Origin: Bradyrhizobium sp. B097
Lineage (GTDB): Bacteria > Pseudomonadota > Alphaproteobacteria > Rhizobiales > Xanthobacteraceae
Direction of reading: 5' to 3'
Assembly (NCBI RefSeq): GCF_038957035.1
Contig: NZ_CP152412.1
Span: 372,001-436,000, forward strand
Length of the DNA: 64,000 nucleotides
Shown here: positions 30,947 to 54,984 of the stretch, piece by piece
How the letters are laid out: each line of letters begins with the position of its first letter
Numbering within the stretch: the first letter of the stretch is position 1
Translations under genes and position numbers: made by a program
The notes under the pieces: model-generated
Seen by the model: the letters and a program-made list of their open reading frames with translations, nothing else
What the model was told of the DNA's origin: nothing
Databases searched by the model: none

Positions 30947-30981
30947 GACATTCTGTCCCGTGGCGCGCGGACAAATTGTCC
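30947..30981 (+). promoter_or_regulatory. Activator site pair A (GACA-N3-TGTC twice)
   Basis: Two palindromes, GACATTCTGTC (30947-30957) and GACAAATTGTC (30970-30980), centres 23 bp apart. The downstream centre lies 60 bp before the GG of the -24 element at 31035. The same arrangement recurs at five other places in the cluster. I infer binding sites for the local NtrC-type activator. Confidence 0.82.
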
Positions 30982-31032
30982 TTCGTGAATGCGGTCGAAT
31001 CACCAAGCGTCTGATGTGACGTGGTTTCCTGA

Positions 31033-31049
31033 TTGGCATGTCTGTTGCT
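31033..31049 (+). promoter_or_regulatory. Sigma-54 promoter A (hdeD-grpE)
   Basis: TTGGCATG-TCTG-TTGCT matches the sigma-54 consensus (TTGGCACG-N4-TTGCW) with the required GG/GC spacing. Expected transcript start is about 31060, giving a leader of about 90 nt to hdeD. Confidence 0.85.
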
Positions 31050-31152
31050 CCGGTGTGCCGTGGCGAGTGTGCTGTGGCGGGAGGCCTTCACGCCTGAGTG
31101 CCGGTTGCACATGGCTGAAGCGGGCTCGCCGGTTCGACTCTCGGAGGGTCCT

Positions 31153-31716
31153 ATGACAACCACAAATCATGCGTCCATGCTGTCCCGCGCGTTTGCGGAC
31201 GTGCACGCCAAGTGGGGCTGGTTCGTCGGCCTCGGGCTCGTCTTCATTGTCCTGGGTGCCGTCGCAGCCGGCAACCTGCTGCTGGCGACAATCGTGACGG
31301 TCTACTACGTGAGCGCGGGAATGATCGTCGCCGGGGTCATGCAGATCGTGCAGTCGCTCCGCGTGAAGACCTGGGGCGGCTTCCTGTGGTGGATGCTCAG
31401 CGGCGTCCTTTACACGGCCGCCGGCGTCGTGACATCGATGAATCCGCTGCTTGCCTCGGTCTTTCTGACATTGATGCTGGCTCTGCTCACGGTTGCTTCG
31501 GGCGCTGCCCGTCTCTGGCTCGGATTCCAGGCGCGAACGGACCACGGCTGGGGCTGGATCGTTGCCTCGGGTGTCGTCACCGCGATCGCAGGGCTCGTTT
31601 TCTTGCTTGGCTGGCCGGTCAACAGTCTGTGGTTGCTTGGCCTTGTTCTGGCGCTCGATCTCGTTTTCCAGGGGTGCGCGCTTGTCGGCCTCGGCCTGCG
31701 GTTCCGCGCAGCCTAG
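31153..31716 (+). CDS. hdeD: HdeD-family membrane protein (DUF308)
   Basis: A 187-residue inner-membrane protein with about six helices arranged as repeated DUF308 pairs (WFVGLGLVFIVLGAVAAG; GGFLWWMLSGVLYTAAGVV; WIVASGVVTAIAGLVFLLGWP). The family is named for E. coli HdeD, linked to acid resistance; hdeD is also a regular member of heat-resistance islands in enterobacteria. ATG 31153 follows GGAGGG at 31143-31148. It is the first gene after sigma-54 promoter A and is followed 52 bp later by grpE, so they form one operon. Molecular activity is not established for the family. Confidence 0.88.
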   Translation: MTTTNHASMLSRAFADVHAKWGWFVGLGLVFIVLGAVAAGNLLLATIVTVYYVSAGMIVAGVMQIVQSLRVKTWGGFLWWMLSGVLYTAAGVVTSMNPLLASVFLTLMLALLTVASGAARLWLGFQARTDHGWGWIVASGVVTAIAGLVFLLGWPVNSLWLLGLVLALDLVFQGCALVGLGLRFRAA

Positions 31717-31768
31717 CGCATACGCCGGTGGAACAGGAAAGCGCTGTCCGCTTGCAAGGGAGGACTAG

Positions 31769-32386
31769 ATGACGGAGCGAAAATGGCCACCCGACGACGA
31801 TCCGCGCGGACACCGCCCGGGAGGTTCGGCTCACACGTTGCCGACCGCGAGCGATGCCCTGCCTGACCCCGGAGGCGCGGCGGATTCCGGGAGAGCCGTA
31901 GCAAGCGATCGTTCGTCGGAGGATCGCACCCAACTCCTCGCTGAGAATGCCGAGCTCAAGGACCGCTTGCTGCGTGCATTGGCCGAGGTGGAGAACACAC
32001 GCCGTCGCGCCGAGCGCGATCTCGACAACATGCGCCAATACGCGATCACGAAATTTGCCGGCGATATGCTCATCGTGGCCGATAACCTGGAGCGAGCCAT
32101 TGCCAGCATCCCCGCCGGTGTCCGGGAACCGGAGGCGGCGCTGAGGGCTCTGGTTGAAGGTGTCGGCCTCACCGAGAAGGAGTTGCTGCGCGCGTTGGAA
32201 GAGCACGGCATCAGGAAGCTCGATCCCGTCGGCGAACGGTTCGATCCCAATTTCCACGAGGCATTGTTCGAGGTACCGGATCCGTCCGTACCGCGCGGCA
32301 CCGTGATGAAGGTTCTGCAGCCGGGCTACGCGATCGGCTCCCGCGCATTGCGTCCCGCGAAGGTCGGCATCGCGAGTGGGGCATGA
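31769..32386 (+). CDS. grpE: GrpE nucleotide exchange factor
   Basis: A 205-residue co-chaperone that releases ADP from DnaK. A disordered N-terminal part (about 1-50) leads to a long coiled coil (LLAENAELKDRLLRALAEVENTRRRAERD) and the C-terminal beta-wing region with the family end motif GTVMKVLQPGYAIGSRALRPAKVGIA. The ribosome site is AGGGAGGA five bases before ATG. It is transcribed with hdeD and lies one promoter upstream of the hsp20-dnaK group. This is probably an accessory copy, since a housekeeping grpE is expected elsewhere. Confidence 0.93.
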   Translation: MTERKWPPDDDPRGHRPGGSAHTLPTASDALPDPGGAADSGRAVASDRSSEDRTQLLAENAELKDRLLRALAEVENTRRRAERDLDNMRQYAITKFAGDMLIVADNLERAIASIPAGVREPEAALRALVEGVGLTEKELLRALEEHGIRKLDPVGERFDPNFHEALFEVPDPSVPRGTVMKVLQPGYAIGSRALRPAKVGIASGA

Positions 32387-32405
32387 AAACCCATCCCGCT
32401 CCACC

Positions 32406-32439
32406 GACAACTTGTCCTGCACGGCAGAGACAAAATGTC
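32406..32439 (+). promoter_or_regulatory. Activator site pair B
   Basis: GACAACTTGTC (32406-32416) and GACAAAATGTC (32429-32439), centres 23 bp apart. The downstream centre is 60 bp before the GG of promoter B at 32494, identical to the spacing at pair A. Confidence 0.83.
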
Positions 32440-32491
32440 CGCCGTCGCGATCGATGGGCCTCTAAGTCGTTGTTACCGTTGGCGGCAGGGG

Positions 32492-32508
32492 ATGGCATGC
32501 CCGTTGCA
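32492..32508 (+). promoter_or_regulatory. Sigma-54 promoter B (hsp20-dnaK group)
   Basis: ATGGCATG-CCCG-TTGCA, correct -24/-12 spacing. Expected transcript start is near 32519, giving a short leader of about 34 nt. The likely operon could reach through dnaK and the cbpA/cbpM genes to the two-component genes, which would make the system self-regulating; the operon's end is not seen. Confidence 0.85.
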
Positions 32509-32552: not shown

Positions 32553-33149
32553 ATGATGGCGCCGAATTCCACCGCACCTGTTCGATCAGGCGTTCCGATT
32601 CAGCGTGATATCGAAGCTCCCTTCCATTCGCTCCATCACGAGATCAATCGGCTGTTCGGCGAGGTCTTCCTGCATGGCCGTCTTCATCATCAGTCGCGTC
32701 CCAACGTCGATCAGCAGGGCCCCTTCATGCCCAGCATCAATGTGAGTGAGACCGATGGCGAGATGCGGATCAGCGCCGACCTCCCCGGTGTGAGGGCGGA
32801 GGATATCGACGTTACGCTCGTCGATGACATCCTCACCATCCGCGCGGAGAAGACGCTGGATCGGACGGACGACAAGGAGAACTTCCACGTCCTCGAGCGC
32901 TCCTACGGCACATTGCTCCGCACGTTGCGCCTGCCTTATTCGGTCGACGCCGACAAGATGAAGGCCGACTTCGACAATGGCGTTCTGACGGTGACGTTGC
33001 CGATCAACAGGGAGAAGGAACACGTCCGCAGAATACCCGTTCATGCTGCCGCGCAGAGTAGCGAAGCGCCGGCGCCGGACCGGAACAAAGCCGGCGCGGC
33101 CGCACCGGAAGTGGCGTACAATGCCGATCCGAAGCCGAAGGCGTCATGA
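32553..33149 (+). CDS. Hsp20-family small heat-shock protein 1
   Basis: A 198-residue ATP-independent holdase. The alpha-crystallin domain (about 60-150) has the typical MPSINVSETDGEMRISADLPGV start, IDVTLVDDILTIRAEK and the A-x-x-x-n-G-v-L-t motif as DNGVLTVTLP. An N-terminal arm of about 55 residues (His-rich around HGRLHHQSR) and a C-terminal tail with the IPV anchor (VRRIPVHA) are present, so it can form large oligomers. It would hand clients to the DnaK and ClpB encoded nearby. First gene behind sigma-54 promoter B. Confidence 0.93.
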   Translation: MMAPNSTAPVRSGVPIQRDIEAPFHSLHHEINRLFGEVFLHGRLHHQSRPNVDQQGPFMPSINVSETDGEMRISADLPGVRAEDIDVTLVDDILTIRAEKTLDRTDDKENFHVLERSYGTLLRTLRLPYSVDADKMKADFDNGVLTVTLPINREKEHVRRIPVHAAAQSSEAPAPDRNKAGAAAPEVAYNADPKPKAS

Positions 33150-33340: not shown

Positions 33341-35239
33341 GTGGGAAAAGTAATCGGTATTGATCTCGGAACGACGAACTCCTGCGTTGCCGTCATGGAC
33401 GGCAAGAACCCGCGCATCATTGAGAATGCGGAAGGAATGCGCACAACACCGTCGGTCGTGGCGTTCACGAGCGACGGCGAGCGCCTCGTGGGTCAGCCCG
33501 CACGCCGCCAGGCGGTGACAAATCCCACCAACACCATCTTCGCGGTGAAGCGCCTGATCGGCCGTCGCTATGACGATCCGATGGTCGAGAAGGACAAAAA
33601 GCTCGTCCCCTACACGATCATCAAGGCCTCGAACGGCGATGCCTGGGTCGAGGCCGGCGGGAAGTCCTATTCGCCGTCGCAGATATCGGCGTTCATCCTG
33701 CAGAAGATGAAGGAGACCGCCGAGGCCAACCTTGGCGAGAAGATCACGCAGGCGGTCATCACCGTCCCCGCCTATTTCAACGACGCGCAACGGCAGGCGA
33801 CCAAGGATGCCGGCAAGATCGCAGGCCTGGAGGTGCTGCGCATCATCAACGAGCCGACGGCCGCAGCGCTCGCCTATGGTCTGGAGAAGAAGAAGCAAAG
33901 CAAGATCGCGGTTTACGATCTCGGCGGCGGTACGTTCGACATCTCCATTCTCGACATCGGCGACGGCGTGTTCGAGGTCAAGGCCACCAACGGGGACACC
34001 TTCCTCGGCGGTGAAGATTTCGACATGCGGCTGGTGAATTACCTGGCCGACGAGTTCCAGAAGGAGCAGGGCATCGATCTGCGCAAGGACAACCTCGCCC
34101 TGCAGCGGCTCAAGGAAGCCGCAGAGAAGGCCAAGATCGAGCTCTCGACCACGACGCAGACCGAGATCAACCTTCCGTTCATCACGGCCGACGCATCAGG
34201 TCCCAAGCATCTCCAGGTCAAGCTGACCCGCGCAAAGTTCGAATCCCTGGTCGACGACCTCGTGCAACGGACCATCGAGCCCTGCCTCAATGCCCTCAAG
34301 GACGCGGGCCTCAAGGCCCAGGATATCAACGAGGTCGTTCTGGTCGGCGGAATGACCCGCATGCCGAAGATCCAGGAGATCGTGCAGAAGATCTTCGGGA
34401 AGGAGCCGCACAAGGGTGTCAACCCCGACGAGGTTGTAGCGATCGGCGCGGCGATCCAGGCCGGCGTGCTGCAGGGTGACGTCAAGGACGTTCTGCTGCT
34501 GGACGTCACGCCCCTGTCGCTTGGTCTCGAGACGCTGGGTGGTGTGTTTACGCGCCTGATCGAGCGAAACACCACCGTTCCGGCGAAGAAGAGCCAGGTG
34601 TTCTCGACAGCCGAAGACAATCAGAATGCGGTGACCATTCGCGTCTTCCAGGGCGAGCGCGAAATGGCCGCCGACAACAAACTGCTCGGGCAGTTCGACC
34701 TGATGGGTATTGCCCCGGCGCCGCGCGGTGTGCCGCAGATCGAAGTCACGTTCGATATCGACGCCAACGGCATCGTCAACGTTTCGGCGAAGGACAAGGC
34801 GACTGGCAAGGAGCAGCGCATCCAAATCCAGGCGTCCGGCGGCCTCTCCGAAGCCGACATCGAGCGCATGATCAGGGAGGCCGAGGCGCACGCGGTCGAG
34901 GACAAGAAGCGCAAGGAAGCGGTCGAGGCGAAGAACACCGCAGAGGCGCTGCTGCATTCCGCGGAAAAGACGGTCGCTGAGCATGGCTCCAAGCTTTCCG
35001 ACACGGACCGTCGCGGCATCGAGAACGCCATGTCGGATCTGCGCGAGGCGCTGAAAGGCGACGATGCGGCTGCGATCACCACCAAGGCGAGTGTGCTCCA
35101 GCAGAGCGTGATGAAGCTGGGTGAGGCGATCCACACCGCGTCGCAAGGGACATCCGGCGCCAGCCCGGGTCACGATGACAGCAACGTCGTCGATGCCGAG
35201 TTTACGGAGATCGGCGACGACGAGAAGAAGTCGATGTAG
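33341..35239 (+). CDS. dnaK: Hsp70 chaperone DnaK (cluster copy)
   Basis: A 632-residue Hsp70 starting at GTG 33341 with CAGGAGGG upstream. The ATPase domain (1-380) shows [17 protein letters not shown], the connect motifs and [19 protein letters not shown]; the substrate domain follows (about 390-600) and the tail ends in [12 protein letters not shown], the usual acidic DnaK terminus. Complete in length. With GrpE, a CbpA-type J-protein, Hsp20 and ClpB it gives a full disaggregation set in one cluster. A housekeeping dnaK-dnaJ pair would be expected elsewhere; this copy's promoter context points to sigma-54 rather than heat-shock sigma control. Confidence 0.95.
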
Positions 35240-35388
35240 CGAGGCTGCGGCCGGGGTCTCCCGCGCATACACAAATGTCGGCTGGTCCGGGCGACGCGAA
35301 TTGCCCGGGCCGCCTCGATCGGATCACTCAGGCTCTATCCTTGATGCCCAGTAGGCATCGTCTTCCAACTCACAAAAGGGGGTTTCTC

Positions 35389-35886
35389 ATGCGACGTCAT
35401 CGGGGTCTTTCCATCGTTATTGCCGCCACCATGCTGAGCGCGCTGGTGTCGTCCGGCCTTGCGCAGCAACCGGCGCAACCGGCACAGAAGGTGCAAGTCG
35501 GCGTGCTCGAGTGCCTTGGCGGCGCGACCGTCGGATTCCTCGTGGGGGCTGTTGTCAATCTTCGATGTGTCTTGCGGATCAACGGAATGCCGGAAGACTA
35601 CTACGTAGCGACAATGCAGAAGCTCGGTCTCGATATCGGCTTCACGGAGACCACGGCGCTTGCCTGGAATGTATTTGCACCCGTAGTGCAGCCCGGTCGC
35701 GGCGACCTTGCCGGTACCTATGTCGGGGTCGATGCCATGGCGGCGGCCGTGGTGGGTGTGGGCGGAAACGTGCTGCTCGGCGGCTCGAACAACAGCATCG
35801 CGCTGCAACCGCTCAGCGTTCAGGCGTCGACCGGCGTGATCATTGCCGCCGGCGTCGAGAGCCTCACCCTGCAACCGGGGCGATGA
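35389..35886 (+). CDS. DUF992-family exported protein
   Basis: A 165-residue protein with a signal peptide (about residues 1-27, cleavage after GLAQ) and a DUF992-like domain (VGVLECLGGATVGFLVGAV, a Cys pair, then GVDAMAAAVVGVGGNVLLGG and the end SVQASTGVIIAAGVESLTLQ). The family is common in rhizobiales and has no known activity. Ribosome site AAAAGGGGG; 149 bp after dnaK with no promoter recognised between. Confidence 0.82.
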   Translation: MRRHRGLSIVIAATMLSALVSSGLAQQPAQPAQKVQVGVLECLGGATVGFLVGAVVNLRCVLRINGMPEDYYVATMQKLGLDIGFTETTALAWNVFAPVVQPGRGDLAGTYVGVDAMAAAVVGVGGNVLLGGSNNSIALQPLSVQASTGVIIAAGVESLTLQPGR

Positions 35887-36241: not shown

Positions 36242-37150
36242 GTGGCGACCAATCCATACGATGTGCTCGGCGTCTCATCGTCGGCTTCCGCCGCCGACAT
36301 TCAGAAGGCTTATCGCAAGCTGGCGAAGAAGCTTCATCCGGATCTCAACCCCGGTGACAAGAAGGCCGAAGAGAAGTTCAAGGAAGTTGCAGGCGCCTAC
36401 GATCTGCTCGGCGATGCCGAGAAGCGGAAGCGGTTCGACGATGGAGAGATCGACGCGTCAGGTGCGGAGCAGCCGCAACATCATTTCTACCGGGATTTCG
36501 CCGGCGCGGACGACGGTCATCCCTACACCAGCGGTGCCGGCTTCGCCGATTTCATAGACGGCGAGGACCCGTTCGCCGAGCTTCTCAAGCGCAGTCAACG
36601 GGCGCGCGCGAATCGTCGCGGCGCAGATCTGCACTACCGGCTCGCGATCGATTTCGTGGATTCGATCACGGGTGGGAACAAGCGCATCACGTTGCCGGAC
36701 GGCGGCGCATTGGATGTGAAGATCCCACCCGGGCTGGTCGACGGTCAGATCCTGCGCCTCAAAGGCAAAGGTGCGCCCGGCACCGGCAAGGGCGGGCCTG
36801 GCGATGCGCTGATCGATGTGGAAGTCCTGCCCGACCGACGCTTCACGCGCGACGGTGACAACATTTCGCTGGAATTGCCGATCTCGCTGCCCGAGGCCGT
36901 TCTGGGTGGGCGGGTGCGCGTCCCGACGCCAACCGGCGAAGTGACCATGTCAGTCCCGAAGGGATCGAACACCGGGACAATGCTTCGACTGCGCGGAAAG
37001 GGCGCGCCGCGCCATGGCGGCGGAAGCGGCGACGAACTCGTGAAGTTGAAGATCGTCCTGCCGAACTCGCCGGACCCGGAGCTTGAGGCGTTCGTGTCGG
37101 GATGGGGCAAGGGCAAGGAATTCAACCCGCGCGAAGGCGGTGCATCATGA
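36242..37150 (+). CDS. cbpA: CbpA-type DnaJ co-chaperone
   Basis: A 302-residue class B J-protein. The J domain (residues 4-68) contains the HPD motif in [11 protein letters not shown] linker of about 45 residues leads to two C-terminal substrate domains (about 125-290; [27 protein letters not shown] and [14 protein letters not shown]). There is no zinc-finger domain, which separates it from DnaJ. Its GTG start at 36242 is preceded by GGGAGAGC. The stop overlaps the next gene by four bases (ATGA), the usual cbpA-cbpM arrangement. It would deliver clients to the cluster's DnaK. Confidence 0.93.
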
Positions 37151-37428
37151 TCATGAGCAGGCAGGAGTTTCTGATCGCTTCCGGTGTGCAGGGGCAGACC
37201 CTGGAATTCTGGCTCGAGCAGGAGTGGCTGATCCCCGAGCGGACCATCACCGGGATGACATTCACCGAGGGCGACGTTGCCCGTGCGCGCTTCATTCAGG
37301 ATCTTGCGGCCGGAATGGGCGTCAACGACGAAGGCATCGATGTGGTGCTTCATCTCGTGGACCAGCTTCATGGCATGCGGCGGGTGCTTGCGCGGCTGCA
37401 TGACGAGGTCAGCGGCGAGGCGACCTAG
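37147..37428 (+). CDS. cbpM: CbpM-like chaperone modulator
   Basis: A 93-residue MerR-like small protein. CbpM binds the J domain of CbpA and blocks its activity. The family pattern is seen in [27 protein letters not shown] and the helix [39 protein letters not shown] 37147 overlaps the cbpA stop. A second ATG at 37153 is equally possible. Confidence 0.88.
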
Positions 37429-37568: not shown

Positions 37569-38957
37569 ATGTCGGAGGATTCAACCCAGGAAGTTGTCGA
37601 ACCCGTCGGCGGCCCGGAGTTCGGCCCCTGGCTCTCGCAGGCGTCGATATTGGTCATCGATGATGAGCCCGGTATCCGCAACTTTCTCGTCAAGATTCTG
37701 CGGCCGCGTTGCAAGCTGATCGAGGAGGCGGCAGATGCCAAGGAGGCGTCGCGCAAGCTCGACAGCCGGCATTTCGACGTGGTCATTCTTGACAACGTCA
37801 TGCCCGGGAAAGCGGGTCTTGACTGGCTTGCCGAACAACGAGCGATCGGCTTCTTCGCCGATGTGATCCTGATGACGGCTTACGCCGACCTCGATACAGC
37901 TATCGTGGCTTTGCGGGCCGGTGTCGTCGATTTCGTTATCAAGCCGTTCCGTTCCAATCAGTTGCTCAACGCTGTCGCCCGATGCCTAGACCGAACGCGG
38001 CTGCAGCGAGAGAACTACGTGCTGCGTCATGAATTGACATCCGCTTCATACGAAACGTTCCTGCGTAACAAGCTACTGGGTCAGTCGGGCGCAATACAAC
38101 AAGTGCGCGATATCATCGCGCGAGTTGCTCCGTTGCCTACGCCAGTCTTGTTTACCGGCGAATCAGGAACCGGCAAGGAGGTTGCCGCCCGCTCGCTTCA
38201 TTCCCTCTCCAATCGCGCGGACAAGCTCTTCGTGCCGATCAATTGCGGCGCGATTCCAGCCGATATGATCGAGAGCGAGCTGTTCGGCCATCTCAAGGGA
38301 GCGTTCACGGGTGCAGGACGGGCTCGCGAGGGTCTGTTCATGCACGCACAGGGCGGGACCGTATTTCTCGATGAGATCGGCGAATTGCCTTACACGCTTC
38401 AAAGCAAGCTGCTGCGGGTTCTCGAGGATCGCCGCGTGCGTCCCGTTGGGGCGGAACGAGAGGTCCCGTTCGACGCCCGCTTCGTCTTCGCCACCAATGC
38501 CGATCTGCCAAGCCGGGTCGAGGCCGGCAGTTTCCGCGCTGATCTCTACTTCCGAATGAACATCATGCAAATCGGCATGCCGCCGCTTCGTAACCGCGGC
38601 GAGGACGTCCTCGAGCTCGCCGCAATATTCATGCGCGATATTTCCCAGCAGCTCGGCATGCCCGCCGTGCCCATGGGCGAGCGCGTGCGCGCGGCCCTGA
38701 CGCACTACGAGTGGCCCGGGAACATCCGGGAGCTGCGCAATCTGATCGAGCGGACCATCATTCTCGGAACTTTCCCGGAGGATTTCGAGAGAGCCCTTGA
38801 TCATGGCGAGAGCGGAGGGGAGAGTCTTGCTCAAGTGGAGCGACGCCATATCCTGGCTATCCTTCGCGAGACAGGCGGAGATCGCGACGAAACTGCGCGG
38901 CGGCTTGGCATCTCGCGCAAGACGGTCGACCGCAAATGCGCAAGCTGGAAAGTATAG
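37569..38957 (+). CDS. NtrC-family sigma-54 activator (response regulator)
   Basis: A 462-residue two-component activator. The receiver domain (25-140) has DD at 31-32, phosphoacceptor D75 ([10 protein letters not shown]) and Lys in FVIKPF. The AAA+ domain (about 165-400) has Walker A GESGTGKE (197-204), the sigma-54 contact loop GAFTGA (244-249) and Walker B GGTVFLDE (262-269). The C-terminal Fis-like helix-turn-helix ends the protein ([21 protein letters not shown]). It is encoded 140 bp after cbpM, with its kinase overlapping downstream. Six matching sigma-54 promoters with paired palindromes lie within 25 kb; I infer that this is their activator. Confidence 0.93.
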
Positions 38958-40972
38958 CTGTTCGCTCGATGAGCAATCGACGCTCGGTTCGCTATCGATT
39001 GCTGGCGATCGCTCTCGTGCCGATGCTCGTGATTCTCCCGCTACTGCTGGGGATCAGCATCTATCGTTGGAACACCAAATTCGACGAGGCGCTGCTCTCC
39101 AAAGTCCACGACGATCTGACCATCGCGCACCAATATCTCGCTCGTATCATGGAGAATACGGAAGACCAGTTGGCTTTCGTCACCGGCTCCGCGCGGTTTC
39201 AGACGACGTTGCAAAAGCAAGGTGGTTCTGACGGCGATCTTGCGGCGCTTCTCAGGGAAACTGCGCAGGCCCGCGGGTTTGATTTTCTCTATATCGTGGT
39301 CGACGGCGGACATATCGTGGCAAGCGAATATCCGCTTGCGTCGGCCTCCGTCCGCTGGAACTGGCCGGTCATCAGCACCGCGCTTGAAGGGCACGCAAGG
39401 ACGGCGATCGACGTTTTCGAGGCGACCGAGCTTTCGGCGGTATCGCCTGATCTCGCGCAACGGGCACGGATCGATCTCGTTCCGACCGTCGGAAGCGCTC
39501 CGAGCACAAAGGCGGAGGAAACGCGCGGCCTGATCCTTCAGTCGGCCAACCCCCTGATGCTGCCCGACGGTCGGCGTGCTGCGCTGGTGGGCGGCATCCT
39601 CTTGAATCAGAATCTCGCCTTCGTCGATACGATCAACGATCTGATCTATCATGGCCTGGGCCTGCCTCAGGAGAGCCGTGGCACCGTCACCCTGTTTCTC
39701 GATGACGTGCGCATCAGCACCAATGTGGAGTTGTTCGAGACGCAGCGTGCGATTGGCACCCGTGTGTCTGCGGCGGTCCGCAAGGCCGTCCTCGACGACG
39801 GCGGCAGCTGGTTCGACAGCGCATTCGTCGTCAACGACTGGTATGTCTCGGGTTATGAGCCGCTGCTCGATAGCTACAATCATCGCGTGGGCATGCTCTA
39901 TGCCGGCTTTCTTCAAAAGCCCTTTACCGAAGCGAAGCGCCGGACGCTGATCGAGATCGCGGTTGCTTTCCTGGTTGCCGTTGCCGCCACTGTTCCATTG
40001 TTTCTGAGGTGGGCCGCGGCGATCTTCCGTCCTCTCGAGAGCATGACGGGTACAATTACCCGGGTCGAACGGGGTGAGCTCGACGCCCGAACCGGGCATG
40101 CTGGCGATCAGGACGAAATCGGCCGGGTTGCGCTCCACCTCGATCGGCTCCTGGACCAGCTTCACGAGCGCGATACCCAGCTGCGGCAATGGAATGAGGA
40201 GCTCAATCAGCGCGTCGAGGAGCGCACCAGCAAGCTGCAACTCGCCAATCAGCAACTGGAGGCGACCACGAAGCAGCTCATCATGTCGGAGAAGCTCGCC
40301 GCGATCGGCGAAATCACCGCCGGCATCGCGCATGAGATCAACAATCCGATCGCCGTCGTGCAGGGCAATCTCGAAGTCATCCGCGACCTGATGGGGAGCA
40401 AGGTCGATGATGCGAAGACCGAGTTCCGGCTCATCGACGAGCAGTTGCGACGGATCAGCGAGATCGTCACCAGACTGCTTCAGTTCGCCAAGCCGCAGGA
40501 ATACGCAGGCTTCGTGGAGCAGTATCAGCCAGACGAGATCGTGAACGATACGCTGCCACTGGTCCAGCACCTGCTGAACAAGACGACGATCACCGTCGAC
40601 AAGGAGTATCGCGCATCGCGTCCGATTTCGATGAACAGGACCGAGCTTCAGCAGGTGCTGGTGAATCTGATCGTCAATGCGATTCACGCAATGCCCGACG
40701 GCGGACGGCTGACACTGCGGACGTTCGATCGCCAGGAAGGTCTCCGTCGCGGTGTCGTGATCGAGGTCGGCGACACCGGCGCCGGCATGACGCCCGATAT
40801 CATGCAGCGGATCTTCGATCCCTTCTTCACGACCAAGAGACGGGAAGGCACCGGCCTCGGGCTGTCAATTAGCCAGATGCTCGTGACCCGACAAGGTGGT
40901 AGGATCTCGGTCGAAAGCGAATTGGGAAAGGGCACGACCTTTTCCGTCTGGCTGCGGGAAGCTCCCGGCTGA
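38936..40972 (+). CDS. Membrane sensor histidine kinase, partner of the NtrC-type activator
   Basis: Up to 678 residues. A first membrane helix (about 22-42, LLAIALVPMLVILPLLLGI), a periplasmic sensing region of about 290 residues that looks like a double-Cache fold, a second helix (IEIAVAFLVAVAATVPLFL), a HAMP domain and a coiled coil lead to the phosphoacceptor H466 (GEITAGIAHEINNPIAVV) and the ATPase domain (NLIVNAIHAMPDGG, DTGAGMTPDI, GTGLGLSIS). The kinase core is of the NtrB/DctB type that pairs with sigma-54 activators. The ATG at 38936 overlaps the activator gene by 22 bp; ATG 38969 (MSNRRSVRYR) is an alternative. The signal sensed is unknown. Confidence 0.92.
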   Translation: MRKLESIAVRSMSNRRSVRYRLLAIALVPMLVILPLLLGISIYRWNTKFDEALLSKVHDDLTIAHQYLARIMENTEDQLAFVTGSARFQTTLQKQGGSDGDLAALLRETAQARGFDFLYIVVDGGHIVASEYPLASASVRWNWPVISTALEGHARTAIDVFEATELSAVSPDLAQRARIDLVPTVGSAPSTKAEETRGLILQSANPLMLPDGRRAALVGGILLNQNLAFVDTINDLIYHGLGLPQESRGTVTLFLDDVRISTNVELFETQRAIGTRVSAAVRKAVLDDGGSWFDSAFVVNDWYVSGYEPLLDSYNHRVGMLYAGFLQKPFTEAKRRTLIEIAVAFLVAVAATVPLFLRWAAAIFRPLESMTGTITRVERGELDARTGHAGDQDEIGRVALHLDRLLDQLHERDTQLRQWNEELNQRVEERTSKLQLANQQLEATTKQLIMSEKLAAIGEITAGIAHEINNPIAVVQGNLEVIRDLMGSKVDDAKTEFRLIDEQLRRISEIVTRLLQFAKPQEYAGFVEQYQPDEIVNDTLPLVQHLLNKTTITVDKEYRASRPISMNRTELQQVLVNLIVNAIHAMPDGGRLTLRTFDRQEGLRRGVVIEVGDTGAGMTPDIMQRIFDPFFTTKRREGTGLGLSISQMLVTRQGGRISVESELGKGTTFSVWLREAPG

Positions 40973-46636: not shown

Positions 46637-46647
46637 GACAGTTTGTC
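46637..46647 (+). promoter_or_regulatory. Single activator palindrome (site G), apparently degenerate promoter
   Basis: GACAGTTTGTC, the same palindrome as in the six paired sites, but alone. A TTGGCAC follows only 12 bp later without a matching -12 element (GAGCG in place of TTGCW). It looks like a deletion-collapsed copy of the promoter arrangement. Confidence 0.55.
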
Positions 46648-46708: not shown

Positions 46709-46903
46709 ATGGAAGAGTACGATCTCTACATCAATGTGAAGAAGCCGGCGATCGGACTGTATGTGCGCAAGGGCGCAAATCTCCCTGACCTCGCGGACAA
46801 GGGCGATTGGGTGTTCGACGGCACCTGTGCCCAGGACCTGGTGCCCTCGAGCGTCATCTTGGGCGTGAGAGCTGACGGGCACGCTTTTCGAGACATGGAT
46901 TAG
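46709..46903 (+). CDS. Small protein (64 aa) of unknown function
   Basis: A 64-residue protein, EEYDLYINVKKPAIGLYVRKGANLPDLADKGDWVF, ending in HAFRDMD. Predicted mainly beta; no cysteine cluster or membrane helix. Ribosome site AGGAAGG about 10-11 nt before the ATG. The codon use matches its neighbours. I do not recognise a named family. It is followed at once by a 6-bp stem hairpin (46905-46919) and the DyP gene. Confidence 0.72.
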   Translation: MEEYDLYINVKKPAIGLYVRKGANLPDLADKGDWVFDGTCAQDLVPSSVILGVRADGHAFRDMD

Positions 46904-46934: not shown

Positions 46935-47900
46935 GTGCCGTCTGCTGTTCCGCAACCGGTCGTCGCGCGTCTCACGCGGGCAGCCATCTTCCTTGTCGTG
47001 ACGGTCAATTCGGGACCGGAAAGCGACGTCGCCGTGCGTGGTCTCTGCGCCGACCTGTCCTCGCTGTTACGGGCCGTCGGCTTCCGTGACCTCAAGGGGC
47101 GGTTGTCGTGTGTCATGGGTATAGGCTCCAGCGTCTGGGACCGGCTGTTTGGCGCGCCGCGACCGAAGGATCTGCATCCGTTTCAGGAAATTCGTGGCGT
47201 GCATCATGCGGTTTCGACGCCGGGCGATCTTCTCTTCCATATCCGGTCCGCTCGTATAGATATGTGTTTCGAGCTCGCAGCGCAGATCATGTCACGGCTC
47301 GGGAACGTCGTGACCGTTGTCGACGAGGTGCACGGCTTCAAATACTTCGACGACCGCGATCTGATGGGCTTTGTCGATGGCACCGAAAACCCCGTCGGCG
47401 AAGGCGCCGAACGCGCAACCGTTGTCGGCGAGGAGGATGCGCCCTTTGCCGGTGGCAGTTACGTCATCGTGCAGAAGTATCTGCATGATTTGGCGCGCTG
47501 GAATGCAGTGCCGGTCGAGCAGCAGGAAAACATCATCGGTCGGCACAAGCTCTCCGATATCGAGCAATTGGAGGCGGCGAAGGCGCCTTATGCGCACAAC
47601 GTCCTGACGACCATTGTCGAGGATGGAGAGCAGCTGGAAATCGTTCGCGACAACATGCCGTTCGGCGAGTTCGGCAAGGGCGAGTTCGGCACCTACTTCA
47701 TAGGATACGCGCGATCGCCGCATCGTATCGAGCAGATGCTCGAAAACATGTTCGTCGGCCGGCCGCCCGGAAACTACGACAGGCTGCTGGACTTCAGCCG
47801 CGCCGTGACCGGCGCATTGTTCTTCGTGCCATCGGCAAGCTTCCTCGACGACGTCGAGCCGGAACTTGCGTCGAAGGTGCCGGCTGCCAAATCCAAATGA
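46935..47900 (+). CDS. DyP-type heme peroxidase
   Basis: A 321-residue dye-decolorising-type peroxidase using hydrogen peroxide. The GxxDG motif is present as GFVDGTENP with the catalytic Asp, and the proximal heme His region lies near the C-terminal part (QENIIGRHKLSDIEQ). No Tat signal, so cytosolic, as in the YfeX/EfeB-related group without export. GTG start at 46935 with AAAGGAG six bases upstream. Functionally it complements the superoxide dismutase of the cluster, which makes peroxide. Confidence 0.9.
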   Translation: MPSAVPQPVVARLTRAAIFLVVTVNSGPESDVAVRGLCADLSSLLRAVGFRDLKGRLSCVMGIGSSVWDRLFGAPRPKDLHPFQEIRGVHHAVSTPGDLLFHIRSARIDMCFELAAQIMSRLGNVVTVVDEVHGFKYFDDRDLMGFVDGTENPVGEGAERATVVGEEDAPFAGGSYVIVQKYLHDLARWNAVPVEQQENIIGRHKLSDIEQLEAAKAPYAHNVLTTIVEDGEQLEIVRDNMPFGEFGKGEFGTYFIGYARSPHRIEQMLENMFVGRPPGNYDRLLDFSRAVTGALFFVPSASFLDDVEPELASKVPAAKSK

Positions 47901-47969: not shown

Positions 47970-48266
47970 ATGCTTGACCTTGACGTGTACGAAGACGAAC
48001 GCGATGTGGTGGTCCTTGCGGAGCTGCCTGGCCTGAGCGAAGACGAGATCGAGGTCATGGTGGACGATGACGTGCTCACCATTCTCGCCGAACCGAGCCT
48101 CGGGCGGCACAAGCCGGAAGGCCATTGCCGCGTGGGACGCTCGTTCAGATTTCTGGGCGTGATGCGATTGCCGTGTCCGATCGACCCCGATCGAATGCGA
48201 GTTGACTTCGACCATAGCGTGCTGATGGTGCGGCTGCCGAAGCGGAGAGGCCGCGAGCAGAGCTGA
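47970..48266 (+). CDS. Minimal Hsp20-like protein 2
   Basis: A 98-residue protein consisting almost only of an alpha-crystallin domain (LDLDVYEDERDVVVLAELPGLSEDEIEVMVDDDVLTILAE... DHSVLMVRLPKR). It lacks the N-terminal arm and a clear C-terminal I-x-I anchor, so it may be dimeric or co-assemble with Hsp20 protein 1 rather than form large oligomers. It lies 69 bp after the DyP gene. The ribosome site is weak. Confidence 0.82.
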   Translation: MLDLDVYEDERDVVVLAELPGLSEDEIEVMVDDDVLTILAEPSLGRHKPEGHCRVGRSFRFLGVMRLPCPIDPDRMRVDFDHSVLMVRLPKRRGREQS

Positions 48267-50940: not shown

Positions 50941-53205
50941 CTAGGCGACGACACGAACTGGAATGGACTTGGCGGCCGGCGTGCCGCTGATCTTGTCGTA
51001 ATATTCGAGCGGCAGCAGCGGGTTCAGCTCGGGATAGTATCCCGCGACCGCGCCGCGCGGCATCGGATAGTCCAGCACGGTGAGACCATCGACACGGCGC
51101 CGCACGCCGTCATCGCTGATCGTCTCGAGCGCGATGCGCGCGCCCGAAGCGAGCCCTCTCGCGGCCCGGTCATCGGCGTTCATGAACAGCACCATGCGGT
51201 CGTTGTAGACGCCGCGATAGCGGTCGTTATAGCTGTAGATCGTGGTGTTGAACTGGTCGTGCGATCGGACTGTCGCCAATCGCAACATCGCCGGATCGGA
51301 AACCGGAGCGTTGACCTCAAGGCCGGGCATCAGCAGGAAATTGGCCTTGCCGTTGGGGGTCGGCCAGACCAGCCGGCGCGGCGGCACGTCGAGATGGAAG
51401 CCCTGCGGGCGCTTGATTCTCTCCGAAAAGTCGCTGTAGATCTCGGGATAGACCTCCGCGATCTTGTCGCGGATCAGACTGTAGTCCTCGATATAGCTCT
51501 CCCACGGAATCTCGCTGTCGGGAAGCGTGGCGCGTGCCATCCGGCAGACGATCTCGACCTCGGGGAGCAGATCGGAGCTTGCCGGCGCCAGCACCCCGCG
51601 CGATGCGGTGACCGTGGACATCGAGTCCTCGATCGTCACGAACTGCTCGCCGGCCAAGGTGTAGATGGCCTCGGACCGCGCAACCACCGGCAGGATCAGC
51701 GCATCACGCCCGTGGACGAGATGTCCGCGATTGAGCTTGGTGTTGATGCCAACCGTCAGGGCAAGCTTTCTCATCGCCGCGTACGATCTCTCGGTGTCGG
51801 GGACCGCACGGACGAAATTGCCGCCCATGCCGATGAAGACCTTGGCTGTGCCGTTCTGCATCGCCTCGACGGTCTCGACGGTGTGATGGCCGTGTCCGCG
51901 CGGCGGTTCGAAGCCAAAGACGTCGCGCACGCGGTCGAGATAGTCGTCGGCCGGCTTCTCGTCGATGCCGACGGTGCGGTCGCCCTGGACGTTCGAATGG
52001 CCGCGGATCGGCGCGATGCCGGCGCCGGGCTTGCCGAAATTGCCCTTGATCAGCAGCAGATTCACGACTTGCTGAAGCAGCCGCGATCCTTCCTGGTGCT
52101 GGGTCAGTCCCATCCCGTAGCAGATCATTGTCGCCCGGGAGCGCATGTAGATCTCGGCGCAACGGCGGATCTGTGCCTCCTCGATGCCAGAAATCTCGAC
52201 AATGTCGCGCCACGACTGGGCCAGAACATCCCCCCGGATCAGATCGAATCCGACAGTGTGCTCGCGGATGAAATCGTGATCGAGGACCGTCTCGCCCTGC
52301 GCTTCGCGCTCGAACATCACCTTCATCATGCCCTTGAAAAGGGCAAGATCGCCGCCGATCCTGATGTGAACGAACTCGCTGGCGATCGGGGTCGATCCGA
52401 AGGTCGCCATCTGAACGACATCCTGCGGCTCGGTGAAGCGGATCAGTGCGCGCTCCGGCATCGGATTGACAGCCACGATCGGCACGCCGCGCTTTCGCGC
52501 CTCGACCAGATTGGTCATCATGCGCGGCGAGTTGGTGCCGGTGTTCTGCCCGATCACGAAGATGGCTTCGGCGTGCTCGAAGTCCTCCATCACCACGGTG
52601 CCCTTGCCGACGCCGATCGCGGGAGGCAAACCGCGGCTGGTCGGCTCGTGGCACATGTTCGAGCAGTCGGGAAAATTGTTGGTGCCGAATGCGCGGACGA
52701 AGATCGAGTAGAGGAACGCCGCCTCGTTGGGCGTGCGTCCCGAGGTGTAGAATTCCGCGTGGTGCGGGCTCTCCAGCGCACGCAAATGATTTCCGATCAT
52801 CGTGAAGGCCTCGTCCCACGCGCATGGCACATAGCGATCGGAAGCCGCGTCGTAGCGCATCGGCTCGGTCAGGCGGCCTTGCATCTCAAGCCAGTAGTCC
52901 GACTTCTCCATCAGTTCGGACACCGCGTGGCTTGCAAAGAACTCCCGCGTGACCCTGCGTTTGGTTGCTTCGAACGCCAGCGCCTTGGCGCCGTTCTCGC
53001 AGAACTCCAGCGTCTTCTTGCAGTCAGGGTCGGGGAAAGCGCAACTCGGACATTTGAAGCCGCCGGGCTGGTTCATCGCCAGCAATGCGCGCGATCCTTT
53101 GGTGACGACGCTCTGCTCGAGCAGCACCTTGGCGGTTGCGCCGGCTGCGCCCCAGCCGCCCGCAGGATGATGATAGGCCTTGTAACGAGGCTTGTGGTCG
53201 GTCAT
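50941..53205 (-). CDS. YdeP/FdhF-family molybdopterin oxidoreductase
   Basis: A 754-residue bis-MGD enzyme related to formate dehydrogenase H but of the YdeP branch. The N-terminal region has cysteines in GGFKCPSCAFPDPDCKK and FCENGAKA for an iron-sulfur cluster; NVQGDRTVGI and GMGLTQHQEG are cofactor contacts. No selenocysteine or catalytic Cys as in true FdhF is obvious. YdeP is linked to acid resistance in E. coli, but its reaction is not settled. No signal peptide. Start at ATG 53205 (GGGGAG eight bases upstream) rather than GTG 53214. It is divergent from the bestrophin gene across site pair E. Confidence 0.88.
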   Translation of the reverse strand: MTDHKPRYKAYHHPAGGWGAAGATAKVLLEQSVVTKGSRALLAMNQPGGFKCPSCAFPDPDCKKTLEFCENGAKALAFEATKRRVTREFFASHAVSELMEKSDYWLEMQGRLTEPMRYDAASDRYVPCAWDEAFTMIGNHLRALESPHHAEFYTSGRTPNEAAFLYSIFVRAFGTNNFPDCSNMCHEPTSRGLPPAIGVGKGTVVMEDFEHAEAIFVIGQNTGTNSPRMMTNLVEARKRGVPIVAVNPMPERALIRFTEPQDVVQMATFGSTPIASEFVHIRIGGDLALFKGMMKVMFEREAQGETVLDHDFIREHTVGFDLIRGDVLAQSWRDIVEISGIEEAQIRRCAEIYMRSRATMICYGMGLTQHQEGSRLLQQVVNLLLIKGNFGKPGAGIAPIRGHSNVQGDRTVGIDEKPADDYLDRVRDVFGFEPPRGHGHHTVETVEAMQNGTAKVFIGMGGNFVRAVPDTERSYAAMRKLALTVGINTKLNRGHLVHGRDALILPVVARSEAIYTLAGEQFVTIEDSMSTVTASRGVLAPASSDLLPEVEIVCRMARATLPDSEIPWESYIEDYSLIRDKIAEVYPEIYSDFSERIKRPQGFHLDVPPRRLVWPTPNGKANFLLMPGLEVNAPVSDPAMLRLATVRSHDQFNTTIYSYNDRYRGVYNDRMVLFMNADDRAARGLASGARIALETISDDGVRRRVDGLTVLDYPMPRGAVAGYYPELNPLLPLEYYDKISGTPAAKSIPVRVVA

Positions 53206-53269
53206 TGCAAGCACTCCCCAGTCATCCGCGATGCCGGAAGTAGATCATGCTATCATATTGATTTCTATG

Positions 53270-53301
53270 GACAATTTGTCCTTTTGCGCGGACAAAATGT
53301 C
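53270..53301 (+). promoter_or_regulatory. Activator site pair E
   Basis: GACAATTTGTC (53270-53280) and GACAAAATGTC (53291-53301), centres 21 bp apart (others are 23). The second centre is 61 bp before the GG of promoter E. The pair lies between divergent genes and could also affect the molybdoenzyme/cio operon, though no clear -24/-12 is seen on that side. Confidence 0.82.
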
Positions 53302-53354
53302 CGGCATCGAAAGCCTATCGCGTGCTAAGTGACTGACCAGACTTCATTCCGGAA

Positions 53355-53371
53355 TTGGCGCGGAGGTTGCT
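53355..53371 (+). promoter_or_regulatory. Sigma-54 promoter E (bestrophin)
   Basis: TTGGCGCG-GAGG-TTGCT, consensus except G for A in the -24 block. Expected start near 53382, leaving a leader of about 180 nt. Confidence 0.82.
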
Positions 53372-53560
53372 TCAGTACGCCCCGTTGAATCGGGGAGACT
53401 GCGTGAACCACCAATCGTCCATGTCGGAAGGTCGCTTCCGACGATGTCCAAACTTGATCGTGGCGACCGATGTGCTCGGCATCGCCGGTGACGATGCGCG
53501 CGCGGCGTCGGGCTCGAGCTGCAATCTCGAGGAGGGCTCCTGCGTGCCGCGGAGGTCGAC

Positions 53561-54457
53561 ATGATTGTGCGCTCCAAGCCCGGCTTCAGGGACATCGTGT
53601 TTGCGGTCAACGGTTCGATCCTGCCGCGGATCGCGCCGCATCTGGTCGCGATTGCCTTGATCAGCGTTCTGGCAGTGCTCGCCGCAATGGAGCATCCGGG
53701 CATCTTTGCGCGGATCAGCGCCGTTCCCTTTACGCTGATCGGCATCGCGCTATCGGTCTTCATGAGCTTCCGGAACAGCGCCTGTTATGAACGCTGGTGG
53801 GAAGGCCGGGAGCTTTGGGGCAAGCTGATCATCGCCTGTCGCTCGTTCGCGCGTCAGACCTCCACCCTCGATGATGACGAGCGGCGCGTGCTGCTTCGCG
53901 GCCTGTGCGGCTTCTGCGCCGGACTGGCAGCCCGCTTGCGCGGTGAGGACGAACTGGCGGCGATCAGGCACTGGCGCGATATCGATGCCGCGTCAGGCGG
54001 GCCCAACCCGACCAATACCGTGCTCAACCAGATCGGAACACAGTGCCTGACATTGATGAAGCGAGACCGGATTGAGCCGATCCACTATTCCGTTCTCGAG
54101 GGGCAGCTGAGCGCGCTCTCCGACGTGCAAGGCGGATGCGAACGCATCGCGTCCACGCCCGTGCCGTTCGCCTATTCCCTGCTGCTGCACCGAACCGCTC
54201 TGATCTTCTGCGTGACGCTGCCGTTCGCGCTTGCCGGATCGCTGGACTGGTGGACGCTGCTGCCGGTCTTGCTGGTCGCTTACACCTTCTTCGGCCTCGA
54301 CGCGCTCGGCCATCAACTCGAGGATCCGTTTGGGCTGGAGCCTAATGCTCTCCCGCTGGATGCAATGCGGCGCATGATCGAGCGCGAGATGCTGTTCCTG
54401 CTCGGAGAGCGGGATCTTCCCGCACCGATCGAGGCGCGTGACAATGTGCTCAAGTAG
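53561..54457 (+). CDS. Bestrophin-family channel protein
   Basis: A 298-residue membrane protein of the bestrophin/UPF0187 family, which form pentameric anion or cation channels. Typical parts are the N-terminal FRDIVFAVNGSILPRIAPHL, the conserved RNSACYERWWEGRELWGKLI, and FGLDALGHQLEDPFGLEPNALPLD near the end. The ATG at 53561 follows CGGAGGTCGAC. It is expressed from sigma-54 promoter E after a leader of about 180 nt in which I see no convincing gene. Ion specificity cannot be told. Confidence 0.9.
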   Translation: MIVRSKPGFRDIVFAVNGSILPRIAPHLVAIALISVLAVLAAMEHPGIFARISAVPFTLIGIALSVFMSFRNSACYERWWEGRELWGKLIIACRSFARQTSTLDDDERRVLLRGLCGFCAGLAARLRGEDELAAIRHWRDIDAASGGPNPTNTVLNQIGTQCLTLMKRDRIEPIHYSVLEGQLSALSDVQGGCERIASTPVPFAYSLLLHRTALIFCVTLPFALAGSLDWWTLLPVLLVAYTFFGLDALGHQLEDPFGLEPNALPLDAMRRMIEREMLFLLGERDLPAPIEARDNVLK

Positions 54458-54592
54458 GCGGAACGTCTGATCCAAGCAAGTTGGCGCGAGATTCCCTTCG
54501 ATCGTGCAACGCCTCGACCTTCATATGAAGGTTGCCATCAGCATATACTGAATAAGCGTATCCGAGTGGGATCGAGGTCCAGGAGGTGCCAT

Positions 54593-54784
54593 ATGACGAT
54601 GAATGAACTCGCTGACGCGCTCGAAAAGATCGACGAGGATGCGTTTGCCTCGTTCCTTCTGGAGTATGAGATCACACACGATGACGGACTAGAGGCAATG
54701 AAGACGATGATCGTCGAGGCGCTTCGGTTCGCGGACGCGCACGGCTTTCATGCGAGCCGACCGCCGCTCGACGAGGCCGACTAG
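54593..54784 (+). CDS. Small acidic protein (63 aa)
   Basis: A 63-residue protein (ELADALEKIDEDAFASFLLEYEITHDDGLEAMKTM) with a strong ribosome site AGGAGG six bases before ATG 54593. Predicted helical and acidic; no known domain recognised. It lies 135 bp after the bestrophin gene with no sigma-54 element found between, so it may share that transcript. Confidence 0.72.
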   Translation: MTMNELADALEKIDEDAFASFLLEYEITHDDGLEAMKTMIVEALRFADAHGFHASRPPLDEAD

Positions 54785-54879
54785 GCTCGAGGAAAAGTCT
54801 ATCCGCCACGAAGATGCCGAACGCGTGCATGCCTCCGCCTCACAAAAGCGTGCGCAGGGCAGGTGAGGCATCGCCGATG

Positions 54880-54913
54880 GACAGCCTGTCCTCGACGGGA
54901 CGGACAAAATGTC
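54880..54913 (+). promoter_or_regulatory. Activator site pair F
   Basis: GACAGCCTGTC (54880-54890) and GACAAAATGTC (54903-54913), centres 23 bp apart; the second centre is 62 bp before the GG of promoter F. Confidence 0.82.
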
Positions 54914-54967
54914 CGTCGTCGCCAGGCGTCTCGCTTCCAAGCCATTGACATTGTTTCTGTGCCCAAG

Positions 54968-54984
54968 TTGGCGCATTCTTTGCC
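54968..54984 (+). promoter_or_regulatory. Sigma-54 promoter F
   Basis: TTGGCGCA-TTCT-TTGCC. GG and GC are correctly spaced; it is the weakest match of the six. Expected start near 54995, about 93 nt before the small gene at 55088. Confidence 0.72.

Follow-up and report, generated by a model that had tools for sequence, protein, structure and literature searches.

Introduction

In DctB-DctD, ZraS-ZraR and other NtrC-type two-component systems, a kinase with a periplasmic sensor (of the Cache type in DctB) acts on a regulator with the GAFTGA motif, and the regulated genes have upstream sites, an IHF-like bend site and a -24/-12 promoter. ZraSR controls one periplasmic chaperone. Chaperone genes usually are under sigma-32, HrcA or ROSE control, and what normally induces them is heat or unfolded protein. 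A ClpK/ClpG-type disaggregase defines the transmissible locus of stress tolerance. Here we describe an island of chaperone genes in Bradyrhizobium sp. B097 that is very probably under the control of its own sigma-54 system. The window, i.e., the whole stretch of DNA analysed, comprises 64,000 nt (GCF_038957035.1, contig NZ_CP152412.1, forward strand positions 372,001-436,000), and all coordinates given below count from its first nucleotide. The host genome consists of a single contig of 9,252,481 bases. Our main conclusion, to which we assign a probability of about 0.85, is that the island forms one regulon under a local sigma-54 two-component system that senses a carboxylate, perhaps formate, and was recruited to a second chaperone set.

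Sigma-54 has been linked to heat-shock genes before. A sigma-54 promoter was reported for E. coli ibpB (Kuczynska-Wisnik 2001, cited in PMC4370416 and present in the reference list of PMC8155344), and computed sigma-54 regulons, with enrichment in Planctomycetota and Bacteroidota, list DnaK, GrpE and IbpA (PMC12316311). An earlier note on this DNA, made from the sequence alone, had claimed that such a regulon is not described. As regards sigma-54 at heat-shock genes, this claim goes too far in view of ibpB (PMC4370416) and of the computed regulons (PMC12316311). Of a sigma-54 regulon that serves an entire chaperone set and has a two-component system of its own, no description was found among the best-ranked papers (8-30) of the open-access literature. 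Within the same scope no description was found of the transporter-type system and its regulator, which are introduced below. None of six chaperone terms occurs in PMC13207237, a paper on RpoN in Bradyrhizobium sp. DOA9.

Results

Paired palindromes before predicted sigma-54 promoters are confined to the island

The palindrome GACA-N3-TGTC is present in 13 copies in the window, compared to 0.79 copies on average and never more than 3 in 100 dinucleotide shuffles, which agrees with the earlier count of thirteen versus about one expected by chance. When one mismatch was allowed, 30 palindromes were found versus 22 expected, i.e., there was no excess, and the signal therefore resides in the exact sites. 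Single palindromes are not rare in the whole genome (169 versus 73 for the reversed pattern). A genome-wide scan for pairs, as proposed in the earlier note, detected two palindromes within 30 bp of each other in six cases, all inside the window and in the island, and in no case for the reversed pattern. Based on the window count compared to shuffles and on this confinement of pairs, a chance origin of the palindromes was rejected. A palindrome followed by TGGY-N7-YTGC after 51-80 bp was found at the six promoters of the window and at six places with a single palindrome elsewhere in the genome, while the reversed pattern gave none. The regulon is thus likely to be local.

All six places (A to F, all on the + strand) have the shared architecture that had been proposed for them. 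The centres of the two palindromes are 23 bp apart in A, B, C, D and F and 21 bp apart in E, and the GG of the -24/-12 element follows the second centre after 60, 60, 62, 61, 61 and 62 bp in A to F. All pairs are exact at the 16 fixed bases, and a TGGCAC-N5-TTGC-type element with exact GG-N10-GC spacing, near the consensus, is present in 6/6 promoters. One rpoN gene was found in the host genome.

In promoter A, the predicted activator sites (30947..30980; palindromes 30947-30957 and 30970-30980, both exact matches) are followed by an IHF-like element at 31005..31013 (AA-N4-CTG, one base off the AA-N4-TTR element described below) and by the -24/-12 element TGGCATGTCTGTTGCT at 31034..31049. Promoter B comprises predicted sites at 32406..32439, the IHF-like element AA-N4-TTG at 32464..32472 and the -24/-12 element TGGCATGCCCGTTGCA at 32493..32508. 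For promoter C the predicted sites are located at 41129..41162 and the -24/-12 element TGGCACGTCAGTTGCT at 41218..41233. Promoter D has predicted sites at 42101..42134, AA-N4-TTG at 42160..42168 and TGGCACGTCGGTTGCT at 42189..42204. The predicted sites of promoter E lie at 53270..53301 and its -24/-12 element TGGCGCGGAGGTTGCT at 53356..53371, and those of promoter F lie at 54880..54913, followed by AA-N4-TTG at 54939..54947 and TGGCGCATTCTTTGCC at 54969..54984.

The thirteenth palindrome (46637..46647, + strand, exact match) is unpaired. In three loci of the same genus (L153, L154, L157) its place is taken by a full pair and a -24/-12 element before the small-protein and DyP genes, and alignment with these loci revealed that most of the promoter stretch is missing in the window. 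For these two reasons the palindrome probably is the remnant of a decayed seventh promoter. A function as lone operator was considered as well; the relatives carry the full promoter at that place.

Sites and regulator gene occur together across genomes

The NtrC-type regulator encoded in the island served as query in a scan with one genome per species (84,980 species), which resulted in 51 loci, 45 of which encode a regulator with at least 59% identity in the best segment. In 36 of these 45 loci, which belong to many genera, an exact pair with 21-24 bp spacing and a sigma-54 site at 57-64 bp are present within 10 kb of the regulator gene; the reversed sequences contained no pairs. A relaxed composite scan of the 51 loci gave 101 sites versus 2 in the reversed sequences. 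Loci outside the island type mostly consist of the regulator gene, the kinase gene, a pair with promoter and a gene for a major-facilitator transporter, and are called transporter-type.

In the order-level sample of 397 genomes (regulator criterion E ≤ 1e-120; pair criterion 21-23 bp), pairs were found in 14 and the regulator in 44 genomes. A pair was present in 10 of the 14 genomes with a regulator of at least 70% identity versus 4 of the 383 others (Fisher p 4e-14, with the 70% cut chosen post hoc). If all 44 genomes with the regulator are considered, the numbers are 10/44 versus 4/353 (p 7e-8). In the ten pair-bearing genomes no pair is more than about 16 kb away from the regulator gene. 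The island-type regulator (77-100% identical) is encoded in 9 of 265 genomes of the genus and the transporter-type regulator (70-72%) in 66, with one match each. Pairs with sigma-54 promoters were found at 9/9 island-type loci and at all six sampled loci of the 66 transporter-type loci. The earlier note had asked whether related genomes keep sites and activator together, and they do so in 36/45 loci and in 10/14 versus 4/383 genomes; palindromes that are common without the activator, which would have spoken against the proposal, were not seen as far as pairs are concerned (4/383).

Several loci deviate from this picture. Seven of the nine other loci in the set of 45 have a variant architecture. 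Three of them (L059-L061), which still speak for the regulon, have an exact pair with other spacing and a sigma-54 site under looser limits. Counted against it are L046, in which the palindromes of the exact pair are separated by 33 bp and the -12 element of the promoter is poor, L058, with one exact and one imperfect palindrome, L026, with a site that is one base off, and L025, a metagenome-assembled genome (MAG) labelled Nitrospira, with pairs 22 bp apart and the promoter at 59-60 bp (positions 13427 and 19805). L062 encodes a relative of the regulator and has no recognisable site at the locus. Also 4 of the 14 genomes with a regulator of at least 70% identity lack a pair of 21-23 bp: G194 has a pair at 24 bp, G138 and G028 have only one exact palindrome, or none at the standard spacing, behind the kinase gene, and G107 is the fourth. 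The L064 sequence stops shortly past the beginning of the kinase gene, too early to judge sites.

L025 has the same architecture except that the left half of each of its four palindromes reads GTCA instead of GACA.

Promoter anatomy in the relatives

Over 80 exact pairs with promoters the consensus of the site is about GGACA-WWT-TGTCC and that of the promoter TGGCACG-N3-GTTGCT. Spacings were counted in 70 sequences, excluding short, duplicate and distantly related loci. Exact neighbouring palindromes are mostly 21-24 bp apart (82 cases); 42-45 bp was found five times and 33, 13, 19 and 50 bp once each. For the reversed pattern there were two neighbouring cases, both at 36 bp. The spacings mostly correspond to whole helical turns, as expected if dimers must share one face of the DNA.

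After removal of identical stretches, 103 distinct promoters were left, and 70 of these have the element AA-N4-TTR at a distance of 29-32 bp from the second centre, while 500 base shuffles gave a mean of 0.94 and a maximum of 5. It fits the right part of the IHF consensus. The element was derived from column frequencies, and a scan with the full IHF consensus was only weakly above shuffles. The following speaks against the element: the range of offsets was picked after viewing the columns and the shuffles ignore the kinship of the promoters, and in the window the element is exact in B, D and F only (3/6), one base off in A and E and poor in C.

In the first helix of the regulator's helix-turn-helix (HTH) domain (GD/GN-R-x-E-A-ARRLG), 43 regulators combine an acidic residue x with 21-24 bp pairs and 19 have neither, with three exceptions. 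As cause of the altered spacing this residue was set aside, as supported branches provided one independent pair, and no inference was drawn.

Regulator, kinase and putative signal

The regulator gene (37569..38957, + strand) encodes a receiver domain with D75, an AAA+ domain with GAFTGA at position 244 and Walker motifs, and a Fis-type HTH domain (Pfam Response_reg, Sigma54_activat, HTH_8), i.e., the domains of an NtrC-type response regulator (bacterial enhancer-binding protein). Its scores with the NCBIfam models ZraR, NtrC and AtoC are far below cut-off. The reading frame is intact and the protein is identical to a regulator of B. altum. The gene overlaps by 22 bp with the gene for a membrane sensor kinase (38936..40972, + strand); an overlap and the GAFTGA motif had been seen in the earlier note. 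According to Pfam, motif positions and an AlphaFold model of the sensor part (mean pLDDT 85.7), the kinase consists of a double-Cache periplasmic sensor, HAMP, HisKA (H466) and HATPase_c.

Several findings bear on formate as signal. The kinase matches the Pfam family sCache_3_3 (PF17202, E 4.5e-27), which we used as mark of formate-specific sensors, and the sensor profile has only two matches among PDB sequences at E ≤ 1, both formate-bound domains. The model superimposes on the formate-sensing Cache chemoreceptors 8py0 and 8py1 with a root mean square deviation of 2.1-2.2 Å over 134-151 residues at 18-22% identity; these are single-module chemoreceptors, while the island protein is a double-Cache kinase with a putative ligand. 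In the two kinase groups, conservation reaches at least 90% at R259, Y303 and Y307, possible ligand contacts that align with like residues in 8py0/8py1. Formate dehydrogenase genes, present in 14 of 37 transporter-type loci, and the PDB sequence matches speak for formate.

Other findings do not favour formate. By structure, LuxQ, DctB and many other Cache sensors tie with the formate sensors. Only 2 of 20 island loci have even FdhD, and the transporter loci L137 and L116 have no formate dehydrogenase neighbour. For three transporters of the family, the best NCBIfam match was the lactate transporter SfMCT (304-316 bits, cut-off 320), with scores far higher than those for the oxalate/formate antiporter model given below. 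Together, the data give formate about an even chance of being the signal, and make it rather likely that the signal is some small carboxylate.

Relation to transporter-type systems

The transporter is assigned to the OFA family in the NCBI annotation of one relative. The three transporters scored below the OFA family cut-off of TIGR00890 (143-147 bits, cut-off 375) and below that of the oxalate/formate antiporter TIGR04259 (119-132 bits, cut-off 335). The module of regulator, kinase and transporter genes is likely to represent a system for formate uptake and use. In several families it lies near formate dehydrogenase genes (e.g., L052, L054-L061, L098-L100, L103, L108).

In a tree of 68 regulators (midpoint root; L030 left out), all 21 island rows form one clade with the short-contig rows L026 and L064 (100/98), and the nearest outsiders, L095 and L046, both are transporter-type. 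The label island or transporter changes once on the tree if L026 and L064 are counted as island, and three times without them. The clade comprises Rhizobiales, a Frateuria isolate and MAGs labelled Nitrospira and Gammaproteobacteria, labels that may be wrong. Both regulator types occur in the genus of the window, in different genomes. The island regulators thus appear to descend from transporter-type regulators, a direction that depends on the midpoint root, and the recruitment may have occurred once and been followed by horizontal spread.

The OFA-type transporter gene of the host itself (G000:C1:2587208) was considered as a remaining target; in the 14 kb around it neither an exact palindrome nor a -24/-12 site with a score of at least 8 was found.

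Genes of the island

The gene identities proposed in the earlier note (hdeD-grpE, hsp20-dnaK, sodB-thioesterase-clpB, bestrophin and small proteins) hold by Pfam and NCBIfam. Unless stated otherwise, all genes are on the + strand. Promoter A is followed by genes for an HdeD-like DUF308 membrane protein (31111..31716, start codon uncertain; PF03729, E 2.3e-19) and GrpE (31769..32386; PF01025, E 1.7e-47). Downstream of promoter B are Hsp20 (32553..33149; PF00011, E 4.5e-21), a second copy of DnaK (33341..35239; NCBIfam DnaK equivalog over cut-off; 82% identical to the product of the other dnaK gene of the genome), a DUF992 protein (35275..35886; PF06186), a CbpA-like DnaJ protein (36242..37150; Pfam DnaJ, DnaJ_C), a CbpM-like MerR_2 protein (37102..37428; PF13591; a 35% identical relative is annotated as chaperone modulator CbpM) and then regulator and kinase. 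No -24/-12 site with a score of at least 8 was found in the 140 bp before the regulator gene, and regulator and kinase genes are therefore probably read from promoter B as part of the dnaK operon, which would result in positive feedback.

Promoter C precedes smC, which encodes a low-complexity protein of 64 aa (41293..41487), and a gene for a conserved 135-aa protein (41572..41979), both without Pfam match. After promoter D follow genes for an Fe/Mn superoxide dismutase (SOD; 42320..42934; Pfam), an FlK-type thioesterase (42938..43351; PF22636), ClpB (43402..46014; NCBIfam ClpB 1408 bits, cut-off 1232), two DUF2171-like proteins (46064-46291, by sequence likeness; 46317-46604, start uncertain, PF09939), a conserved small protein of 64 aa (46709..46903; no Pfam match), a DyP-type peroxidase (46935..47900; Pfam, NCBIfam superfamily over cut-off) and a second Hsp20-like protein (47970..48266; PF00011, E 9.6e-10). 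Promoter E is followed by a bestrophin-family channel gene (53561..54457; PF25539, E 2.5e-100) and promoter F by a gene for a small protein of 69 aa (55088..55297; no Pfam match).

On the - strand, the genes for cytochrome bd oxidase subunits II and I (48465-49754, 49475-50887; Pfam) and for an FdhF/YdeP-family molybdopterin oxidoreductase (50941..53214; TIGR01701 925 bits, cut-off 582) are located. Cytochrome bd oxidase genes adjoin the island in several relatives. The sites of promoter E start 56 bp upstream of the YdeP-family gene on the opposite strand and might influence this gene too.

Predicted targets in other islands

In total, 86 composite promoters were collected from the window, 20 island loci and L026, L030 and L112, together 24 sequences with several close relatives among them. 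The first gene encodes DnaK in 13 cases, an HdeD-like protein in 10, ClpB in 6, the 64-aa protein of 46709 in 6, Hsp20 and a DUF1269 family protein in 5 each, smC, a MoeA-like family protein, the 135-aa protein and bestrophin in 4 each, and SOD and GrpE in 3 each; 12 others occur singly, and for 7 promoters no gene was called. Gene calls were mechanical and may miss the nearest gene of a promoter, e.g., at L023_2532, where HdeD precedes GrpE, and one of the ClpB labels (L068) is based on a frame of 60 aa.

In L029 a YdeP-family enzyme gene directly follows the pair. In Mesorhizobium atlanticum (L031, 13432) the kinase gene is followed by a pair and then by a gene for GroES (Cpn10), and chaperonins can thus join the regulon. 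A MoeA-like gene follows the pair divergent from dnaK in L023 (6125), L024 (6118), L027 (6101) and L037 (6676), with Pfam tested for L023, and this target may link the regulon to a molybdoenzyme. In Frateuria (L035) one pair is located before the transporter gene and another before genes for a small protein and DyP; this locus is a form between the island and the transporter types.

Chaperone islands that lack the regulator

Two comparable islands serve as natural controls. Both share grpE, dnaK, cbpA, cbpM and clpB with the window, and in addition a DyP gene (Methylorubrum) or a DUF308/HdeD-like gene (Phenylobacterium). The megaplasmid of Methylorubrum extorquens AM1 (L135, 8183-17600) carries grpE-dnaK-cbpA-cbpM-clpB-DUF2171-DyP, with DnaK 85% identical. 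Judged by their first residues, neighbouring frames may encode transposases and the gene after DyP an encapsulin. In 25.6 kb of this megaplasmid the palindrome is absent and no -24/-12 site reaches a score of 9 or 10 out of 10, and Methylorubrum has no close relative of the regulator (one match at 40%). The island on the conjugative plasmid of Phenylobacterium zucineum HLK1 has its own sigma-32 gene, no palindrome and no close regulator relative. The idea that the sites are tied to chaperone genes as such was rejected, as neither island has them.

Discussion

Our data support the earlier proposal of a local sigma-54 regulon with its own two-component system: the pairs, as predicted binding sites, are confined to the island and kept together with the regulator. 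From the computed sites, spacings, promoters, co-occurrence and tree we infer the following mechanism. The double-Cache membrane kinase would phosphorylate the NtrC-type regulator encoded beside it, which would bind as two dimers on one DNA face to the two palindromes two helical turns apart. Bending of the DNA may be aided by the IHF-like site, which follows after about 30 bp, so that the AAA+ domain of the regulator could drive sigma-54 polymerase at the strong -24/-12 promoter. The six promoters would thereby control the second chaperone set (GrpE, Hsp20, DnaK, CbpA, ClpB), SOD, the HdeD-like and bestrophin membrane proteins and small proteins, and the dnaK operon probably takes in the regulator and kinase genes and feeds back positively. 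A small-carboxylate switch before a monocarboxylate (OFA-type) transporter gene would have been recruited to stress genes and spread horizontally. In its most specific form, the periplasmic sensor would detect formate, or a small acid related to it, from outside the cell, and a sigma-54 activator from a formate/monocarboxylate uptake module switches on a full second DnaK-GrpE-CbpA-ClpB-Hsp20 system that amplifies itself and is mobile between bacterial classes, perhaps phyla. We give this version slightly less than an even chance.

Other explanations for the arrangement have to be considered. The chaperone genes could really be under sigma-32, HrcA or ROSE thermosensors, with the palindromes serving another regulator. 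This would be the usual control of such genes, the comparable Phenylobacterium island carries its own sigma-32 gene, and a marginal RpoH-like element, matched by only 4.5% of shuffles, is located upstream of dnaK, which may thus be under additional heat-shock control. As the only control it is very improbable, since a search of 28000-58000 up to E 0.5 gave no match to any Rfam family, including ROSE, the window lacks CIRCE even when 3 mismatches are allowed, and no RpoH-like score of the six promoter regions was better than shuffles; moreover, all six regions have strong -24/-12 elements at fixed distance, and the sites accompany the regulator gene across genomes. This last finding also bears on the view that another NtrC-type activator, encoded elsewhere, binds the sites and that the two-component system of the island has nothing to do with them. 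The genome is likely to encode other NtrC-type proteins (98 first-look candidates, 4 scored), but the proximity of sites and regulator gene in 36/45 loci, the position of the sites directly behind the kinase gene in most transporter-type loci, and the lack of sites in the Methylorubrum island without the regulator leave this view with hardly any probability. The island could also be a horizontally acquired relic with promoters that no longer work in the host, as suggested by the probably decayed promoter and by the patchy distribution of the island-type regulator in the genus (9/265 genomes). We regard this as highly unlikely, given six pairs exact in all 16 fixed bases, promoters near consensus and an intact regulator frame with a product identical to that of B. 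altum.

For the signal the situation is less clear. Promoters and sites may be as described here and the signal may be lactate, pyruvate or another monocarboxylate, or acid or envelope stress. The closeness of the transporter to the L-lactate transporter SfMCT, the likeness of the sensor fold to LuxQ, DctB and, at a lower level, KinD with pyruvate, and the HdeD-like, YdeP-family, cytochrome bd and SOD genes of the island, which suggest acid or redox stress, are in favour of this alternative. The formate-bound domains as sole PDB sequence matches of the sensor profile and the formate dehydrogenase genes in 14/37 transporter-type loci argue against it, and we consider a signal other than formate a serious possibility that falls short of being probable.

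Compared to the earlier note, our analysis adds that the regulator family is wider than the chaperone island, that members of the family elsewhere precede a transporter gene, and that the promoters contain an IHF-like element. Two sister forms, predicted to control a transporter or chaperones through the same DNA sites, illustrate clearly how a regulator can be recruited to a new function. As the composite site of two palindromes, IHF-like element and promoter is strict, the regulon can be read from the sequence of other genomes. If a chaperone set is placed under a strictly signal-dependent sigma-54 switch with a dedicated sensor, the question becomes which chemical, not which temperature, calls for protein repair.

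How does the island compare to known systems? With the transmissible locus of stress tolerance, or locus of heat resistance, it shares a mobile cluster of Hsp20, HdeD-like protein and disaggregase; unlike that locus, it has a true ClpB, dnaK, grpE, cbpA and a sigma-54 system of its own. We therefore rejected its assignment to the transmissible locus of stress tolerance, as the disaggregase scored 818 bits for ClpK and 812 bits for ClpG at a cut-off of 1900 and passes the ClpB model. E. coli ibpB likewise is reported to be a heat-shock gene read by sigma-54; it is a single gene also under sigma-32, whereas the island has a dedicated two-component system and six promoters. DctB-DctD, ZraS-ZraR and related systems have the same build of kinase, regulator and promoter; unlike in DctB-DctD and ZraS-ZraR, the predicted targets in the island are a full cytoplasmic chaperone set and redox proteins, with GACA-N3-TGTC as site. 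As a kind, sigma-54 regulons that depend on an NtrC-type two-component system are already known, and the island would extend them to a whole chaperone set.

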